Origin: Populus alba
Lineage: Eukaryota; Streptophyta; Magnoliopsida; Malpighiales; Salicaceae
Assembly: GCF_005239225.2 (NCBI RefSeq)
Contig: NC_133296.1
Location: 13,020,001 to 13,084,000 of the forward strand
DNA: 64,000 nucleotides
Direction: 5' to 3'
Below are positions 13,632 to 23,615 of this stretch, in pieces. The translations under genes were made by a program, and so were the position numbers. Each line of letters begins with the position of its first letter. Positions within the stretch are counted from its first letter, which is position 1. The notes beneath the pieces are model-generated. The model was not told where the DNA came from. It searched no databases and was given only the letters and a program-made list of their open reading frames with translations.

Positions 13632-13636
13632 TGGTG
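13632..13636. repeat. Target site duplication, left copy
   Basis: TGGTG, identical to 23611-23615 on the other side of the element. A 5-bp duplication is standard for Gypsy integrases. Confidence 0.9.
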
Positions 13637-14712
13637 TGTCGCACGTGGCGACGTCGCGGCGAAAAATGTATTGTTTGTTCCATTTTCTTATCTACAATGT
13701 AAATCTATCTATATCTATGGGGATACAAGAAAATATTGTCTTTTGTGGGTGGAAAATGGAATGGGAGTCGCCACCTAGTATTTTGGTCACTAGGAACCCT
13801 AACTGGTCTCAAAGATCGGGTACGGGGACTGGTTGCGTAAAGGGAAGGTATTAGCACCCCAAATACGCCCTACCTAAGGTAAGCTGCATTGTTTTATTGT
13901 CTGATAAAATCTAAGGTATTTTCGTGTTTTTCTAGTTGTTGGGCTGTCTATGGTTCAAGAAAAATCCTCCTCGGTAAGAAGGTCTTTATCTTATCGGGTA
14001 AAATCCTAACCGTTCTAATGTCTATACCAAAACTTTATTAATAATATTTAGGAATACGTTTTACGTATAAATTCGTAATCCCAAATACTACTAATAGCAC
14101 CAAAAAGATTTTTTAGAATTTTTGAAATATTGGCCTAGTTCTCATGGCTTGAATAAACTGGTTATTAAAGCCAAAATGCATGATTATACATATATTGTTT
14201 TGAAAATTTCCTTTGTTGTGTGAAAATATGATGTTATAATATTTATATATATATATTGGAGAGACTAGGCCGTATGCATGAAAACAAAACCTTTTTTGGA
14301 AAATATTTATTTTTTGATGTTTTAACAAAAATCAGGTATTTTAATATTGAGTTTGTATTCTTACGATATAAAAATACAACCCAATATTAATCCACTTTGA
14401 TAAAAATATGCAGAAAAATCAACAACATTTTTAGGGACTTTTTAGAATTTTTTTTGAAAGCAAAAACATTTTTTATTCTGAAAATCTTTGATATTTTGAC
14501 GAAAACCGGGTATTTTTAACACTGGTTTTGTATCTTTACGGTATAAAAATACAAACCAACATTAAACCACTTTGACAAAAATATGCAGCAAAATCAACAA
14601 TATTTTTTAAGATTTTTCAAAATATATATTTTTTAATTATTATATTTTTTTATATATATACACACATATATATTATAAACATATTATATAATATATAATA
14701 TAAAAACAATTC

Positions 14713-14860
14713 GGGCTGGGCCGGCCCAAATAAACGGGCCGGACTCAGCCCAACAAGGAAAGGTTGGGCCGAACTCGGCCCAACCGTAAATTCTTCTTCG
14801 GTCTGGGCCAGAAACGGCCCAGACGTTCATGGGCTGGGCCAGCATCGGGCTGGCCCAGCA
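14713..14860. promoter_or_regulatory. Cluster of GGCCCA/TGGGCC (site II-like) motifs in LTR
   Basis: Eight copies of TGGGCC or its complement lie within about 150 bp, several paired as inverted repeats such as GCTGGGCCGGCCCA. The same cluster recurs in the other LTR at about 21985-22140. Plant site II elements (TGGGCY) bind class I TCP proteins in growth-linked promoters, so a role in LTR transcription is plausible but is inference. Confidence 0.45.
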
Positions 14861-14868
14861 TTAGCAGC

Positions 14869-14930
14869 CCGGGGGGGGGGGAGAATTATTTCCCCCCCCC
14901 CCCCGCCTCCTGCATGCAACATGCAGGAGG
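14869..14930. repeat. G-run/C-run and palindrome hairpins in LTR
   Basis: A run of 11 G is followed after about ten bases by a run of 13 C, giving a perfect G:C hairpin. Directly after it lies CCTCCTGCATG, then caa, then CATGCAGGAGG, an 11-bp-arm palindrome. In the other LTR (about 22149-22205) the runs are 10 G and 10 C and the palindrome is identical. Confidence 0.85.
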
Positions 14931-16336
14931 CAAGGCTGCCACGAAAGGAATGCAGGGAAGAAGGAACGGGTACCTGGCGTGGAGGCGGTCGTTGGTGGAA
15001 CTGCGGTGGCGTGGCTCGCGCACGGCGACTCCGGGCGGTGCTGTGGCGGTTCGAATGGCGGCGGAGAGAAAAGATTTTCTTCCTCTTCCCCTCTTCTTTG
15101 TTTTCGGTTTTTCTTTCTTTTCCTTCCTTTCTCTTTGTTTTCTGTTTTCTTTTTGTTTTTCTGTTTATTCCTTTCTCTTTCCCTCTCTCTTGTTGGTTCT
15201 CTCTCTCTTCGGTCTCCTCTCTCTCTCCTCCCTTCGGGGTCTCTCCTCCTTCCTTTTTTTTTTTTCTTTTTTCTTCGGTTTTCTCTTCTATTTATAGGGG
15301 CAGAACCGGTGTGGGGGACCATTGTTAATGTGCCTTGGAGCGGGTTTCGCGGGTGGCTGGTCGGCCACCACCCGCGACAGCAAGGCCGTTTCTCTACTTT
15401 CGGCCGGTGGTCGGCCAATGCCTTTGGTCGGCCAATGCCTTTGGTCGGTGGTCCCACGGTGTGGGGGCTTCGGGTTGTTCGATGGAGATGCAAGGGAGAG
15501 AGGCGGGAAGATTTGAAAAAAAACAAAAATGGTTTTCTTCTTCTGTTGCTCTGCTTCGGGGGGAAGGAGGAAGATGAACAGTGTCGTTCAAAACGACACC
15601 GTTCTGGGCTTCCTTTTTTTTTTTTTTTTTTTAATATATATATGAAACGGCGTCGTTTTGGATAAAACGTGTCGTTTCATTTAAAGGAGCCAAAATCCAG
15701 ATCAGTCCTCCATTATTTCACCTTCGGTCTCCGTCCCTCTTGTTGGCCGCCTTTTTCACTTTGGTCCTTGGCCTCTGATCTATGCAATTTAGCCCTCAAT
15801 TGATTAATAAACTTTCAATTTCTTCAATTAAGCCCCTGAAACAATTCTAAACAGCCCCCTCTATCTTTGCGCCTTTCTCCAAATTGGTCCCCGGTTTCGG
15901 ATTTTCACAATTAAGTCCCTAATTGACCCTTAAACTTCAATATTTATGCAATTAAGCCCCTGATTTGACCCAATAAATTTCTAAAAAATATATTTTGGCC
16001 CCAGAACTTAAAATTTCTTCTAATTAAAGCCCAAATTGACTTAAAAATCGATTTTTCTTGCAATCAAATCCTCTATAAATTCAAATAAAAAATCCAATTA
16101 AGTCCATAAACATCCAAATTTGGGCTTTTCTCCTCCAAAAATTCAAATTTTCCTTTTCAACAAGGCTCTCATCCTTCAAGAATATATTTGTCAAAAATCC
16201 ATCTTTGTATTTTTTAACCTCCTTGACCGATTTTTTCTGACCATTTGCTGAGCGCTTCTGCCTCCTGTTATTTTTCTAACCTCCTTCAGCTATTTAATTT
16301 ATTTCAATTATGGGGACCCGAAAATGGGTTACAACA

Positions 16337-16352
16337 GATGCCCCCTCTTTAT
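16337..16352 (-). other. Polypurine tract beside the 3' LTR
   Basis: On the minus strand this reads TAAAGAGGGGGCATC immediately before the 3' LTR start TGTTGTAACCC. A polypurine tract here primes plus-strand DNA synthesis and independently confirms the minus orientation of the element. Confidence 0.8.
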
Positions 16353-16488
16353 AATGCTTACGGAGCAAGGGTTTTGCGCAGTAAGTTTTATAAAGATAAT
16401 CCAATTTGAACTCTCGAAACTGATCTGGTCGAAGGTTGATCGATCTGAAACTCTTTCTTTACAGCAAACCTCTTCAGCCTAAAACATT

Positions 16489-17715
16489 GGGATCCCATCT
16501 GGCGATTCCCTGAAAATGAAAAAATATGAGGTCCCCTCCGGCGACCTCCTTTGACAACTATCAAAATACGAGATCCCTTCTGGCGATCTCCTTTAATCAA
16601 CTTGGAACCCCATCTGGCGATTCCTATATGAAATATGAGATATGAGGTCCCATCTGGCGACCTCTAAATAGTGAAACACGAGATCCCTTCTGGCGATCTC
16701 AAACAACTTGGAATCCCATCTGGCGATTCCTTTTAACCAACATGAAATACGAGGTCCCATCTGGCGACCTCCAAATAGTGAAACACGAGATCCCTTCTGG
16801 CGATCTCCTTTAATCATCTTGGAATCCCATCTGGCGATTTCTTTTAACCAACATGAAATACGAGGTCCCATCTGGCGACCTCCAAATAGTGAAACACGAG
16901 ATCCCTTCTGGCGATCTCCTTTAATCAACTTGGAACCCCATCTGGCGATTCCTATATGAAATATGAGATATGAGGTCCCATCTGGCGACCTCTAAATAGT
17001 GAAACACGAGATCCCTTCTGGCGATCTCAAACAACTTGGAATCCCATCTGGCAATTCCTTTTAACCAACATGAAATACGAGGTCCCATCTGGCGACCTCC
17101 AAATAGTGAAACACGAGATCCCTTCTGGCGATCTCCTTTAATCATCTCGGAATCCCATCTGGCGATTCCTTTTAACAAACATGACATATAAGGTCCCATC
17201 TGGCAACCTCCACAATAGTGAAATACGAGATCCCTTCTGGCGATCTCAAACAACTTGGAATCCCATCTGGCGATTCCTTATTACCAACATGAACTATGAG
17301 GTCCCATCTGGCGACCTCCAAATAGCGAAACACGAGATCCCTTCTGGCGATCTCCTTTAATGAACTCGGAATCCCATCTGGCGATTCCTTTTAACAAACG
17401 TGAAATATGAGGTCCCATCTGGCAACCTCCATAATAGTGAAATACGAGATCCCTTCTGGCGATCTCAAACAGCTTGGAATCCCATCTGGCGATTCCTTAT
17501 TACCAACATGAAATATGAGGTCCCATCTGGCGACCTCCAAATAGCAAAACACGAGATCCCTTCTGGCGATCTCCTTTAATCAACTCGGAATCCCATCTGG
17601 CGATTCCTTTTAACAAACGCGAAATATGAGGTCCCATCTGGCGACCTCCACAATAGTGAAATACGAGATCCCTTCTGGCGATCTCAAACAGCTTGGAATC
17701 CCATCTGGCGATTCC
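16489..17715 (-). repeat. Tandem array of hairpin repeats in element 3' region
   Basis: Three related 21-nt hairpins alternate as A, B, C with 10-20 nt spacers, about 34 hairpins in all. The A arms are GGAATC/GATTCC, the B arms GAGGTC/GACCTC and the C arms GAGATC/GATCTC, around the loops CCATCTGGC or CCTTCTGGC. A-type hairpins start at 16489, 16604, 16710, 16821, 16932, 17038, 17149, 17257, 17368, 17476, 17587 and 17695, giving units of mostly 106-111 bp. From 17038 on, 111- and 108-bp units alternate as a dimeric higher-order repeat of 219 bp. Minus-strand frames through the array give a repeating peptide (GDRQKGSR...ARWDSK) because 108 and 111 are multiples of three; I do not think it is translated. 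Arrays at this place are known in Tat/Ogre elements and can seed satellites. Confidence 0.92.
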
Positions 17716-18872
17716 TTATTACCAAAGCTGATATATGTCGTTCTTCCTACGGGCAGGGTTTGGAAGCTATTATCTTCTCTTCTTGTTGTTCTAGAATCAA
17801 CTCAATGATTCTTTCTTCGTCCACAATCTTGTTGGAATGCGCTAAGATCTCCTCCTGTAACGATAAAAAACAAACATGCAATGATTTATGATTAGATGCA
17901 ATGCATGCATTCATACCTGGTTTGAAACATAGGCCCCATCATCTTCTTCTAGTTCATGAAGCTCTTTCTTAACACAAGCTTGCTTTTGAAGTTGTATGCT
18001 GGATTCATCTCTCGTGTTGCCTCTTTTTATTGATCATATTCTTGGAGAAGAAATCTTTGACTTTCTTCAAGTAGTCCTTTTCTCAAAATGTATGACTTGT
18101 CATTGCCTTTTTGTCATGCTTTTGTCAAATGCTTTATTTTTTCAAATCTACGGGCTCTCATCTTGCTTTGAAAAATATGTAAAACTTTTCATGAAATATC
18201 TTTTATTGCCCCCAGTATGGAGTGTGATCCTAGTCTGGGTTTTTATATAGAGAAGAAATTCATTCAGCTAGTGATAAACCTTTTAGTGAGTGAAGGGATA
18301 ATGATTTTTTTTTAAATTTCAAAATGCACATTGTTATGGTTGACAAATTCTATTCTTTAAAAGACAATTACAGATGATTATAAAGTGACCACTTAAACAT
18401 TTATCCATGCTATCAGAGATAGGGTTGTATTTTAGGGTTAGCTTTTCTTAAATTTCATCTTTGACCGATTTATGATACTTTCTTTGTAACCACTCAACTT
18501 TGTTTAAAAAGGTGCATAATCTCATCATTTATTTAAAGAAAAGGTGGGCTCAAAGACAAATACAAAATCTGGCTGACATCATGAGCCCTGATTGTCAACT
18601 AGAGAAAATAAAAGCAAATAAAAAACAATGACAAAAGCATGCTAAGGCAAATAAAGTCGGTTAACATTTTGAAAACTACAGGAACTTCTTGGGTCACCCC
18701 CTTCTGAAACTTCTCTACTCGCGTAAAAAGGTCTTGGCAGAGACTTCTTCTAGTGTGTGGACAATCAACCGTAGCAGCGCTTCATCTTCTTCCCCCACGT
18801 GTGTTTCCTTGTCATCTCTTTCGATCTTACCTTCTCATTATTGACAATTCTTGACCAAGGTTTTCCAGCCCT
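17716..18872. other. Internal element region without coding capacity
   Basis: Lies where pol would be expected (between gag and the 3' array) but shows no protease, reverse transcriptase, RNase H or integrase motif in any frame. The plus-strand frame at 17996-18250 runs against the element and has no known motif. A phrase near 18205-18245 (agtgtgatcctagtctggg) recurs in the old element near 53100-53180, so this filler is shared by the subfamily and is not a deletion scar unique to this copy. Confidence 0.6.
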
Positions 18873-20321
18873 TTATTCACTATTACTTGCGTCATGACTA
18901 GGCAATGGTTTTGAATTGATGTTGGGTGGGTCTTCAAATGACACCCATCCTACCTTGATGAGCTCCAACAACCTTTTCTTGAAAGCATAGCACGTTTCAA
19001 GACCATGCCCGGAGATACCAGCATGGTACTCACAAGTCAACTCGGGCTTGTACCAGATGGGGAATGGTGGTTGTAGTGGTAATGTGGGGATAGGAGCTAT
19101 TTGTCCAATGCTCAGTAGTTTGGCATACATGTCCTTCAAAGGCATGGGTAATGGCGGTAGTTGTTCTGAAATGTATCTTGTGTTCGGTCTTTGGTGGTGG
19201 TTTTGGTTGTTGGACTGGTTATTTGCTCGATTAGGGGAAAAAGTTTTGTTAAAGTTTATGTGGGCCACATGAGAGGTAGGTATTTGTGGGTTATATGAAT
19301 CCGTTATCTTGCCATTGGACCCATCTTCAAAGTTGTTAACGGGACCTTCCATTTTTCTTCCAATAAAACCCTTTGTCTCCAATGGCTCAACTATGCGTCC
19401 AGCTTTAATCCCTTGCTCTATTCTTTCCGCTATGCGTACAGCATTATAGAAATGCTGAGCTGAGCTACCCATTAAATGCTCATAGTAGGGTGCCTTGAAT
19501 GTATTGGCGAACAAAGTCACCATCTCCGTTTCTATCAAAGGGGGTTGCACATGTGTGGCCTCGTCCCTCCATCTTTGCGCATAAGCCCTTACTGACTCTT
19601 GGCTTCTCTTTTCCATTGACATAAGGCTTGTTCGATCTGGAGCAATTTCCAAATTGTACTTGTATTGCTTAAGGAAAGCCTCCACTAAATCCTTCCATTT
19701 CTTAATCCTGGCATTTTCCAACCTCATGTACCAACTTAGCGCCGACCCTGATAGACTGTCTTGGAAAAAGTAGATCAGTAACTTATCATCATGAATCACC
19801 TCAGCCATCTTATTGCAATAAGATCGAAGGTGAGTGTTTGGGCATTCCAACCCAGTGTACCTTATAAACTCCGGTATCCTAAAATCTTTTGGTACCGTGA
19901 TGTTTGGTACCAAGCATATTTCAGACGCTCGCATGGGGTTAAACCAGTCATTTCCCTCGACTGCTCTTAACCTTTCTTCAAAGGCTGATATCTTGTCATC
20001 GTTCATAAAACCAGTGGACCTATTATCGGAAGGCCCATCTGCTGTTAAATCTACAGTGATGTGAGCTCGAGGGGGCTGAATGGGAATGGCAGGTGCAAAG
20101 TGCTGTTCCGTCACTGAATCTGCCCCCAAGTTCTGAGATACCCCGGGGACATGAACTGACGGTGCTCCTATAGGTGGTTGGGTAGACGTTCCCTCCCCGT
20201 TCTTGGCTCTTAAAAGTTGCTCAAGCAGATTGGTCAGTCAGTCGAGAAAACTTCATTTTTTCACAGATTCCAACTCGGTCTGGTAGTGCGACTCTAAGTG
20301 AGCTCCTTCTTCGTTTTCCAT
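18873..20321 (-). pseudogene. Ogre/Tat-type gag (capsid protein), broken near N-terminus
   Basis: From an ATG at 20321 (MENEEGAHLESHYQTELES) the frame runs 483 codons to the stop at 18873. Codons 23 (20253-20255) and 28 (20238-20240) are TGA. Downstream it is open for over 400 codons and shows the Tat-lineage gag core, from DFRIPEFIRYTG through LSWYMRLENARIKKW and the RWRDEATHVQPPL motif. A proline-rich stretch follows, then a zinc-knuckle-like CEYHAGISGHGLETC near the C-terminus. Gag would package element RNA. The two stops fit two nearby small events: loss of a base from an A-run at 20256-20261, and a four-base tandem duplication at 20233-20240, which together keep the downstream frame. A product starting after the stops is possible but unproven. 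Confidence 0.88.
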
Positions 20322-20888
20322 TTTTGATCTGGACCGGGTTTGGTGGACTCTGGATGTGGGACCTATGTTTCACGATCTGGAATGCATATGATAATTTAAA
20401 AAATAAAATGCGTGATAAAAATGTGATGCATAAGTGGTGCGCGATGAGTATAATATTGCAAAAAAGATACATAACCTAAGGACAAGCTCTATTTATTAAG
20501 TGAGAGTGGGTAGATTTTCTATCTAGTCTTGAAGGGTCTCATATCTGCCCAGTGACGTTCTTCGTAAAGACAGTATGGGGGCGTTGCAAGGAACAGTTAA
20601 GACACGTATGCCCACCATTACCAAGCAGGCACTCAGATATGAGTTGGGTGTTTCACGCATTTAAACCCTGACCAATAGTCTTAGGGTAAATCGCTAATTC
20701 CCCACTTAACTTAAGGCTTGTGTGTGCTTCTCAAAATAAAAGCAAGTGATGCATGAGATAATTTTATACAATGCATAAATAATATGCGTAAAATAAAAAA
20801 CAAATATGCAAATAAACGGAAAGGCATATTAACAATAAACACACAAAAACACAAACAAATCAGACAAAAACAAAGCTTAGTCTACAAG
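20322..20888 (-). other. Element 5' leader between primer site and gag
   Basis: About 570 nt of untranslated leader. The part at 20576-20700, with cccaccattaccaagcagg and tgggtgtttcacgcattt, is recognisably conserved in the decayed element at 55785-55900, where it sits in the same place. Leaders of this kind carry packaging and dimerisation signals in LTR elements; that role is inference. Confidence 0.6.
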
Positions 20889-20907
20889 GTCCCCAGTGGA
20901 GTCGCCA
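20889..20907 (-). other. Primer binding site, tRNA-Arg type
   Basis: On the minus strand TGGCGACTCCACTGGGGAC lies three bases from the 5' LTR. TGG followed by the complement of a ...CCCCAGTGGAGTCG acceptor end fits plant tRNA-Arg, the primer reported for Ogre elements. It fixes orientation and lineage. Confidence 0.85.
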
Positions 20908-20910
20908 TTC

Positions 20911-22888
20911 TGTCGCACGTGGCGACGTCGCGGCGAAAAATGTATTGTTTGTTCCATTTTCTTATCTACAATGTAAATCTATCTATATCTATGGGGATAC
21001 AAGAAAATATTGTCTTTTGTGGGTGGAAAATGGAATGGGAGTCGCCACCTAGTATTTTGGTCACTAGGAACCCTAACTGGTCTCAAAGATCGGGTACGGG
21101 GACTGGTTGCGTAAAGGGAAGGTATTAGCACCCAAAATACGCCCTACCTAAGGTAAGCTGCATTGTTTTATTGTCTGATAAAATCTAAGGTATTTTCGTG
21201 TTTTTCTAGTTGTTGGGCTGTCTATGGTTCAAGAAAAATCCTCCTCGGTAAGAAGGTCTTTTATCTTATCGGGTAAAAATCCTAACCGTTCTAATGTCTA
21301 TACCAAAACTTTATTAATAATATTTAGGAATACGTTTTACGTATAAATTCGTAATCCCAAATACTACTAATAGCACCAAAAAGATTTTTTAGAATTTTTG
21401 AAATATTGGCCTAGTTCTCATGGCTTGAATAAACTGGTTATTAAAGCCAAAATGCATGATTATACATATATTGTTTTGAAAATTTCCTTTGTTGTGTGAA
21501 AATATGATGTTATAATATTTATATATATATATTGGAGAGACTAGGCCGTATGCATGAAAACAAAACCTTTTTTGGAAAATATTTATTTTTTGATGTTTTA
21601 ACAAAAATCAGGTATTTTAATATTGGGTTTGTATTCTTTACGATATAAAAATACAACCCAATATTAATCCACTTTGATAAAAATATGCAGAAAAATCAAC
21701 AACATTTTTAGGGACTTTTTAGAATTTTTTTGAAAAGCAAAAACATTTTTTTATTCTGAAAATCTTTGATATTTTGACGAAAACCGGGTATTTTTAACAC
21801 TGGTTTTGTATCTTTACGGTATAAAAATACAAACCAACATTAAACCACTTTGACAAAAAATATGCAGCAAAATCAACAATATTTTTTTAAGATTTTTCAA
21901 AATATATATTTTTTTAATTATTATATTTTTTATATATATACACACATATATATTATAACATATTATATAATATATAATATAAAAACAATTCGGGCTGGGC
22001 CGGCCCAAATAAACGGGCCGGACTCAGCCCAACAAGGAAAGGTTGGGCCGAACTCGGCCCAACCGTAAATTCTTCTTCGGTCTGGGCCAGAAACGGCCCA
22101 GACGTTCATGGGCTGGGCCAGCATCGGGCTGGCCCAGCATTAGCAGCCCGGGGGGGGGGAGAATTATTTCCCCCCCCCCCGCCTCCTGCATGCAACATGC
22201 AGGAGGCAAGGCTGCCACGAAAGGAATGCAGGGAAGAAGGAACGGGTACCTGGCGTGGAGGCGGTCGTTGGTGGAACTGCGGTGGCGTGGCTCGCGCACG
22301 GCGACTCCGGGCGGTGCTGTGGCGGTTCGAATGGCGGCGGAGAGAAAAGATTTTCTTCCTCTTCCCCTCTTCTTTGTTTTCGGTTTTTCTTTCTTTTCCT
22401 TCCTTTCTCTTTGTTTTCTGTTTTCTTTTGTTTTTTCTGTTTATTCCTTTCTCTTTCCCTCTCTCTTGTTGGTTCTCTCTCTCTTCGGTCTCCTCTCTCT
22501 CTCCTCCCTTCGGGGTCTCTCCTCCTTCCTTTTTTTTTTTTCTTTTTTTCGGTTTTTCTCTTCTATTTATAGGGGCAGAACCGGTGTGGGGGACCATTGT
22601 TAGTGTGCCTTGGAGCGGGTTTCGCGGGTGGCTGGTCGGCCACCACCCGCGACAGCAAGGCCGTTTCTCTACTTTCGGCCGGTGGTCGGCCAATGCCTTT
22701 GGTCGGCCAATGCCTTTGGTCGGTGGTCCCACGGTGTGGGGGCTTCGGGTTGTTCGATGGAGATGCAAGGGAGAGAGGCGGGAAGATTTGAAAAAAAACA
22801 AAAATGGTTTTCTTCTTCTGCTGCTCTGCTTCGGGGGGAAGGAGGAAGATGAACAGTGTCGTTCAAAACGACACCGTTCTGGGCTTCC

Positions 22889-22920
<32 letters not shown>

Positions 22921-23610
22921 TATGAAACGGCGTCGTTTTGGATAAAACGTGCCGTTTCATTTAAAGGAGCCAAAATCCAGATCAGTCCTCCATTATTTCA
23001 CCTTCGGTCTCCGTCCCTCTTGTTGGCCGCCTTTTTCACTTTGGTCCTTGGCCTCTGATCTATGCAATTTAGCCCTCAATTGATTAATAAACTTTCAATT
23101 TCTTCAATTAAGCCCCTGAAACAATTCTAAACAGCCCCCTCTATCTTTGCGCCTTCTCCAAATTGGTCCCCGGTTTCGGATTTTCACAATTAAGTCCCTA
23201 ATTGACCCTTAAACTTCAATATTTATGCAATTAAGCCCCTGATTTGACCCAATAAATTTCTAAAAAATATATTTTGGCCCCAGAACTTAAATTTCTTCTA
23301 ATTAAAGCCCAAATTGACTTAAAAATCGATTTTTCTTGCAATCAAATCCTCTATAAATTCAAATAAAAATCCAATTAAGTCCATAAACATCCAAATTTGG
23401 GCTTTTCTCCTCCAAAAATTCAAATTTTCCTTTTCAACAAGGCTCTCATCCTTCAAGAATATATTGTCAAAAATCCATCTTTGTATTTTTAACCTCCTTG
23501 ACCGATTTTTCTGACCATTTGCTGAGCGCTTCTGCCTCCTGTTATTTTTCTAACCTCCTTCAGCTATTTAATTTATTTCAATTATGGGGACCCGAAAATG
23601 GGTTACAACA
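20911..23610 (-). repeat. 5' LTR of the Ogre-like element
   Basis: Nearly identical to 13637-16336. In element orientation it precedes the primer site and gag, so it is the 5' LTR and should hold the promoter. On the plus strand TCTATTTATAGGGG near 22560-22573 resembles a TATA box but faces away from gag, so I do not assign it. The apparent frames of up to 284 codons are the same shadows as in the other LTR. Confidence 0.92.
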
Positions 23611-23615
23611 TGGTG
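23611..23615. repeat. Target site duplication, right copy
   Basis: TGGTG, matching 13632-13636; it fixes the right boundary of the element at 23610. Confidence 0.9.

Follow-up and report, generated by a model that had tools for sequence, protein, structure and literature searches.

Why would a retrotransposon carry dozens of copies of one short inverted repeat whose two arms change together, and are the stems kept as paired RNA? The question is raised by positions 16489..17715 of a 64,000-nucleotide stretch of Populus alba DNA, the window analysed here, in which an initial annotation made from the letters alone had noted about 34 copies of an inverted repeat in three stem classes and had proposed that their paired RNA form is maintained. 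We approached it through the host element, the variation within the window, the predicted folds, the relatives readable in protein codons and the DNA of the poplar's own genome. Judged from these sequences, the stems are likely to be maintained as paired RNA in the sense of the element at their inner pairs, the outermost pair being an exception.

The array and its host element

A pattern scan bore out the description of the array, which lies on the minus strand, 152 bases from the 3' LTR, and comprises 34 hairpin units of 21 nt (12 of class A, 11 of class B and 11 of class C) in an A-B-C order that is strict throughout. In the unit listing, read in element sense, class A is exemplified by GGAATC-GCCAGATGG-GATTCC (17695..17715, minus strand), class B by GAGGTC-GCCAGATGG-GACCTC (17628..17648, minus) and class C by GAGATC-GCCAGAAGG-GATCTC (17665..17685, minus), the last being identical in all 11 of its units within the window. 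Perfect 6-9-6 arms occur in 27 of the 34 units, whereas 200 dinucleotide shuffles of the array averaged 0.38 such units and never gave more than 3, although the copies are tandem and these 27 units are therefore not 27 independent events. The shared loops were also as described, with the edge copy at 16528 and its loop CCCTCCGGC as the sole departure. Arm variants are found in seven units (16489, 16604, 16821, 16932, 17038, 17190 and 17409), the unit at 17190 being altered in both arms. The units at one edge of the array, 16489 and 16528, are degenerate, and the array also shows higher-order repetition with periods of 219 bp and 328 bp. Hairpins are far less variable than the spacers of their own array, with a within-class pi of 0-0.067 in the arms and 0-0.040 in the loop as against 0.165-0.222 in the spacers.

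The host is an LTR element on the minus strand, delimited by self-BLAST and by reading of its ends to 13637-23610 of the window (9,974 bp). Its 3' LTR (13637..16336, minus; ends TGTTG...GACA) and 5' LTR (20911..23610, minus) are self-BLAST partners, and their 98.7% identity across 2.7 kb, the TG...CA ends and the flanking target-site duplication TGGTG, read at 13632..13636 on the left and at 23611..23615 on the right, identify an LTR retrotransposon. By reading, we located a candidate primer-binding site, TGGCGACTCCACTGGGGAC (20889..20907, minus), set three bases inward from the end of the 5' LTR, and a candidate polypurine tract, AAAGAGGGGG (16341..16350, minus), which adjoins the 3' LTR. The list of open reading frames contains a gag frame of 454 codons from stop to stop (18873..20237, minus) that matches Pfam PF03732 Retrotrans_gag with an E value of 1.2e-9. 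No pol-sized frame was present on the element strand, and because the longest of the remaining inter-LTR frames of 80 codons or more has 132 codons, the element is gag-only and presumably non-autonomous. Non-autonomous gag-only LTR retrotransposons form the TR-GAG type, which the poplar element resembles in its complete LTRs, target-site duplication, candidate primer-binding site and polypurine tract, gag frame and lack of a pol-sized frame on the element strand, and from which it differs in its two 2.7-kb LTRs and its hairpin array. Within each LTR a segment of about 120 bp is doubled at about 84-85% identity (14313-14432 with 14487-14607, and 21589-21709 with 21765-21886), and each LTR also carries one minus-strand match to K10_TLS of Rfam, at 21621-21663 (E 0.0006) and 14345-14386 (E 0.003), both below the gathering score.

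Tandem arrays at this place are known, as the initial annotation had stated for Tat/Ogre elements. Arrays of family-specific sequence that separate the coding part from the 3' LTR are described for Tat, Ogre and Retand elements (PMC11963269, PMC7004042); they are common and feed plant satellite DNA (PMC7004042), and their origin and function are called unknown (PMC11963269, PMC7004042). The poplar array differs in that its monomer is a short stem-loop with covarying pairing, and this monomer is apparently new: the word "hairpin" does not occur in the main texts, supplements aside, of PMC11963269, PMC7004042 and PMC6317226, and no description of covarying hairpins in such arrays was found among literature titles and abstract openings or in passages of PMC3735527, subscription texts aside. 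A 3' array is shared with other elements and is not diagnostic of Tat/Ogre, a lineage of Ty3/gypsy that is recognised by reverse transcriptase phylogeny and an aRH domain between RH and INT (PMC6317226); the poplar element is known from its gag, without pol. Retand carries an antisense 3'-region frame with a TRP28 domain in 97% of clusters (PMC11963269), and the two plus-strand, antisense frames at 17580-17888 and 17990-18247 of our window had no Pfam match at E 1.

Window variants and predicted folding

Transcribed in the minus sense, which is that of the element, the arm variants become G.U wobbles in five of the seven units and A.C mismatches at 16489 and 16821, in agreement with the initial reading that several variants preserve pairing and these two break it. 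Hand collapse of evident shared copies reduces the seven units to about 4 G.U and 2 A.C events. The loop edge is a CpG, read as GGCG in 31 of 34 units and as GGCA in the other 3, and since the GGCG>GGCA change contained in the G.U units 17038, 17190 and 17409 sits in this CpG, ordinary methyl-CpG decay can account for it. With a balance of about 4:2 that is partly CpG decay, we rejected the window wobbles as evidence for RNA pairing.

In the initial annotation the argument rested mainly on the three classes. Class matching by chance alone, that is, a second arm differing at the same places as the first, has a probability of 0.0004 when any base is allowed and up to 0.011 when changes are restricted to transitions. 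These values also fit an explanation at the level of DNA, where the palindrome would be a symmetric protein site or the product of quasi-palindrome template-switch correction, with arm copied from arm and no selection on RNA. Such a process needs few events to explain why the three classes are perfect and why 27 of 34 units have matching arms, but a binding site would fix the arm sequence as well, beyond its symmetry, and we hold the DNA-level palindrome to be improbable, also in view of the counts in relatives given below. Over the 10 distinct rows of the array, standard pairs fill 97.5% of pair cells, a value reached by 0 of 500 shuffles, and sliding the partner by 1-3 columns brings pairing down to 10-70%. 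Pairs altered on both sides (3 of 8) were equalled by 281 of 500 shuffles and the further pair types (6) by all 500, and in all two of the five shuffle measures did not exceed chance on these rows. By itself, the window is weak evidence for maintained RNA pairing, and wobbles plus three classes do not carry the claim that had been built on them.

Predicted folding supports element-sense pairing only partly. For a single unit in element sense, folding predicts a stem of 6 bp, followed by a bulged G and two further C-G pairs and capped by an AGAW tetraloop, at -8.8 to -11.1 kcal/mol. Local folding at a span of 60 gave a mean pair probability of 0.86 in element sense, with 31 of 34 stems above 0.5, and of 0.91 in antisense; at a span of 200 these means dropped to 0.61 and 0.69, respectively. 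In a long fold of the array, 14 of 34 stems were present in element sense versus 18 of 34 in antisense, and the antisense was the more stable strand relative to its own 20 shuffles. Folding the minus-sense RNA, the check that had been suggested, therefore predicts the stems locally but fewer than half of them at length. Because the antisense folds as well or better, the sense was not chosen by folding energy but by the bias between G.U and A.C.

Variation pair by pair in relatives and in the genome

Three protein searches returned 53, 27 and 58 proteins, 117 of them distinct, of which 3 are labelled Populus alba (P0021, P0026 and P0031), 110 carry JGI or ENA tags and 4 are marked "src". Hairpins were sought in the codons of all 117 proteins in six frames, instances with more than two changes being excluded, and this yielded 793 instances, 539 of them exact. 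The logic of the test is that a transition in a Watson-Crick pair produces a wobble on one strand and an A.C mismatch on the other. Since the unit is palindromic, both intermediates occur in nearly equal DNA context, and parity is thus expected under strand-symmetric mutation without RNA selection. The main count takes only pairs with both arms readable in codons.

At pairs 2-5, single-arm variants in element-sense RNA comprised 27 G.U contexts versus 5 A.C (p 1.1e-4, one frame-artefact context excluded), corresponding to G.U:A.C counts of 11:3 at pair 2, 2:2 at pair 3, 8:0 at pair 4 and 6:0 at pair 5, and to 12:2 and 15:3 in the two reading directions. Removal of class chimeras left 22:4, a count that omits seven contexts (five G.U and one A.C judged chimeras, plus the frame artefact); collapse of a recurrent motif as well, by merging four pair-4 contexts into one, left 19:4 (p 0.0026), and this set without pair 4 gave 14:4 (p 0.031). 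Counted as distinct types of pair, class and change, the ratio is 8:2, with too few types to decide. At pair 4, G-C, G.U and A-U are all present and A.C occurs in 0 of 308 readable cases. One-sided inner-codon counts were 9:2 at pair 3, 9:0 at pair 4 and 6:4 at pair 5. At pair 2, one reading frame holds 28 contexts that would be A.C if the unreadable partner were unchanged, a number perhaps inflated because the codon change is TGA>TGG and an unchanged TGA closes the frame. In element sense, the inner stem pairs of the relatives are more often kept or turned into a wobble than broken. Among protein units in which both arms, though not pair 1, could be read, no new Watson-Crick pair was seen at pairs 2-8, and one unit of P0008 looks compensated at pair 1.

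The outermost pair behaves in the opposite direction, with 35 one-sided changes of A.C type versus 17 of G.U type. Related arms that vary without preserving pairing, named at the outset as what would speak against RNA pairing, are thus found at pair 1, and pair 3 is evenly divided, but they do not prevail at pairs 2-5 as a group. Two further sets of pairs were set apart: pair 6, at 12:2, was excluded from the evidence as dominated by CpG, and the extra pairs 7 and 8 at the loop neck showed no clear preference (10:4, p 0.18), with balanced one-sided loop changes.

In DNA, the two intermediates of a palindrome are nearly equivalent, yet G.U is from about five-fold (27:5) to about eighteen-fold (88:5, among the matches listed) commoner than A.C, which speaks against a DNA-level palindrome. 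The larger of these ratios comes from the 416-Mb Populus alba assembly (96 contigs), where a pattern search, which gives minimum counts for large families, found at least 1749 + 1865 = 3614 adjacent-unit matches genome-wide and none in the reversed control. A neighbouring stretch of 200 kb on the same chromosome held no array. At the loci of one contig, C1, a hand count with near-copies included gave 12 G.U versus 1 A.C at pairs 2-5 among 54 units, these being the units with at least four paired positions out of 66 distinct ones (12 dropped; one spurious and one shifted unit set aside). A further 46 units came from the listed C1 matches, with a pattern that fixes pairs 5 and 6, so that pairs 1-4 are the informative ones, and with two of 70 adjacent-pair rows (C1:2190302 and C1:2542165) omitted from the count; they showed 7 G.U (6 contexts), 1 A.C and 2 other changes at pairs 2-4, and 5 A.C versus 1 G.U at pair 1.

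The genome-wide count of G.U against A.C covers pair 2. In B/C stems, 118 units have G in the 5' arm and C or T opposite, and among the matches listed (100 of 118) a hand count gave 88 G.U and 12 compensated G-C units, with 5 matches genome-wide for the A.C counterpart. The ratio of 88:5 would have a p of about 1e-20 if the copies were independent, which they are not, as they share family variants; with each contig and class/loop counted once, from a class list made by hand, it becomes 35:5 (p 1.4e-6). Among the matches listed, the G-C units comprise 11 of the form GGGGTC..GACCCC, all with an AGAA loop, and one GGGATC..GATCCC, which could, from its letters, alternatively derive from class A by a change at pair 3. 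Whichever polarity the G-C state has, A-U, G.U and G-C are all numerous at pair 2 and A.C is rare. For pair 5, the corresponding patterns are GRRRCCGCCAGAWGGGAYYYC for the A.C state and GRRRTCGCCAGAWGGGGYYYC for the G.U state.

An excess of this kind might also arise if a few old variants had been produced by mutation with a strand bias (A>G and C>T on the strand of the element, for example through transcription) and spread by transposition. Variants do recur in what appear to be copies of the same unit, such as C1:2273639, 2481142 and 2992047, which have similar neighbours, and the symmetry of the flanks of pair 2 is incomplete past one base. Loop transitions outside CpG served as a control, and with 19 G.U-like changes against 25 of the opposite type they are balanced, so that a general strand bias is not seen; the loop differs from the stem counts by Fisher's test both against 27:5 (p 3e-4) and against 19:4 (p 0.002). 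Shared descent is confronted with a G.U excess that extends over three pairs (2, 4 and 5) and over the backgrounds of all three stem classes; moreover, 15 independent G.U events versus 5 A.C would suffice for p<0.05, and the 100 listed pair-2 places spread over 16 contigs and several class/loop types. We therefore give shared descent with biased mutation a low probability. By the sequences compared, pairing is kept through compensatory or G.U changes at pairs 2-5 as a group and, genome-wide, at pair 2, and the proposal that the paired RNA form is maintained is supported for these pairs and not for pair 1.

What the hairpins might do

Maintenance of paired RNA would imply selection on the folded element-sense transcript, in which G.U is tolerated and at times completed to a Watson-Crick pair and A.C is removed. 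The loop is near-fixed while the stem letters differ among classes, and a constant loop above a stem free to vary in sequence is the trace that would be expected from an RNA-binding protein that reads the loop. Such a protein, either the Gag of the element or a host export or stability factor, would read the fixed loop on a paired stem whose sequence is free. The location upstream of the polypurine tract and 3' LTR, together with the copy number, suggests avidity for Gag or a host factor, and many hairpin copies could raise it for packaging or for nuclear export of the unspliced RNA. That the array is a series of small RNA hairpins within the untranslated 3' portion of the genomic transcript of a gag-carrying LTR family, selected as a fold and read by protein, is a reading for which we see the case as evenly balanced.

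The main rival that likewise acts on element-sense RNA and tolerates G.U is self-amplification, in which stems in the template stall the reverse transcriptase and cause strand jumps, foldable units being duplicated or re-homogenised and broken ones left behind. It predicts the same G.U excess as well as the periods of 219 and 328 bp and the degenerate edge units at 16489 and 16528, and abnormal strand transfer in replication has already been proposed for such arrays (PMC7004042, citing Macas 2009). It does not readily explain why a loop of nine bases stays near-fixed while the spacers diverge, and we regard it as unlikely, if worth keeping in mind. We infer that the hairpin would serve either as a repeated RNA-binding hairpin or as one that drives its own amplification. 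The at least 3614 adjacent-unit matches in one genome are natural variants with which it can be asked which base pairs are selected, and also whether the fold benefits the element or just the expansion of the array; in this way a covarying hairpin monomer makes the function of Tat-type 3' arrays testable.

The retroviral constitutive transport element is a structured genomic RNA that follows the coding region and precedes the 3' LTR, and packaging stem-loops are structured as well. The protein-read hairpins proposed here would resemble these 3' cis-acting RNAs in being structured RNA of the genomic transcript with a similar way of working, and they differ in being a single small hairpin repeated in tandem over a long array. 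A sequence link was sought in Rfam, where each of the 16 matches with an E value of 1 or less fell below its own gathering score. By this analogy, it is a tentative idea, which we would not favour at present, that a plant lineage carries a multivalent RNA signal read at the loop, made of thousands of hairpins under element-sense compensatory selection and serving Tat-like elements much as transport or packaging structures serve retroviruses. If true, a role could be assigned to at least part of the so far unexplained 3' arrays from which plant satellites are seeded.

Outside plants, the B/C hairpin pattern was matched once in each of 14 viral contigs (L001-L014), probably by chance, with no array among viral contigs and none found there by protein search; one match fell in a bacterial genome. 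Among the relatives, ten proteins (P0072, P0088, P0096, P0099, P0102, P0104 and P0112-P0115) have a second tandem repeat beside the hairpin array, which reads MGDLPKK, WVTYP and GWPTQ in its three frames and by hand back-translation resembles a short hairpin, TGGGT-5 nt-ACCCA; a search of the window for GGGTGAC-0 to 4 nt-ACCC gave no match. In the arrays of P0105, P0117 and part of P0116, class B stems carrying the AGAA loop predominate, and this unit is possibly the oldest, ancestral to classes A and C. Finally, an array of a different type, with the spacer CATGTAGCTTTGGTTAAAGG, occurs at positions 626801-627044 of contig C1 (G000:C1:626801-627044), at other places on C1 and in L062-L064, and its units apparently read GAGGTC..GATCTC, a standing G.U at pair 4.
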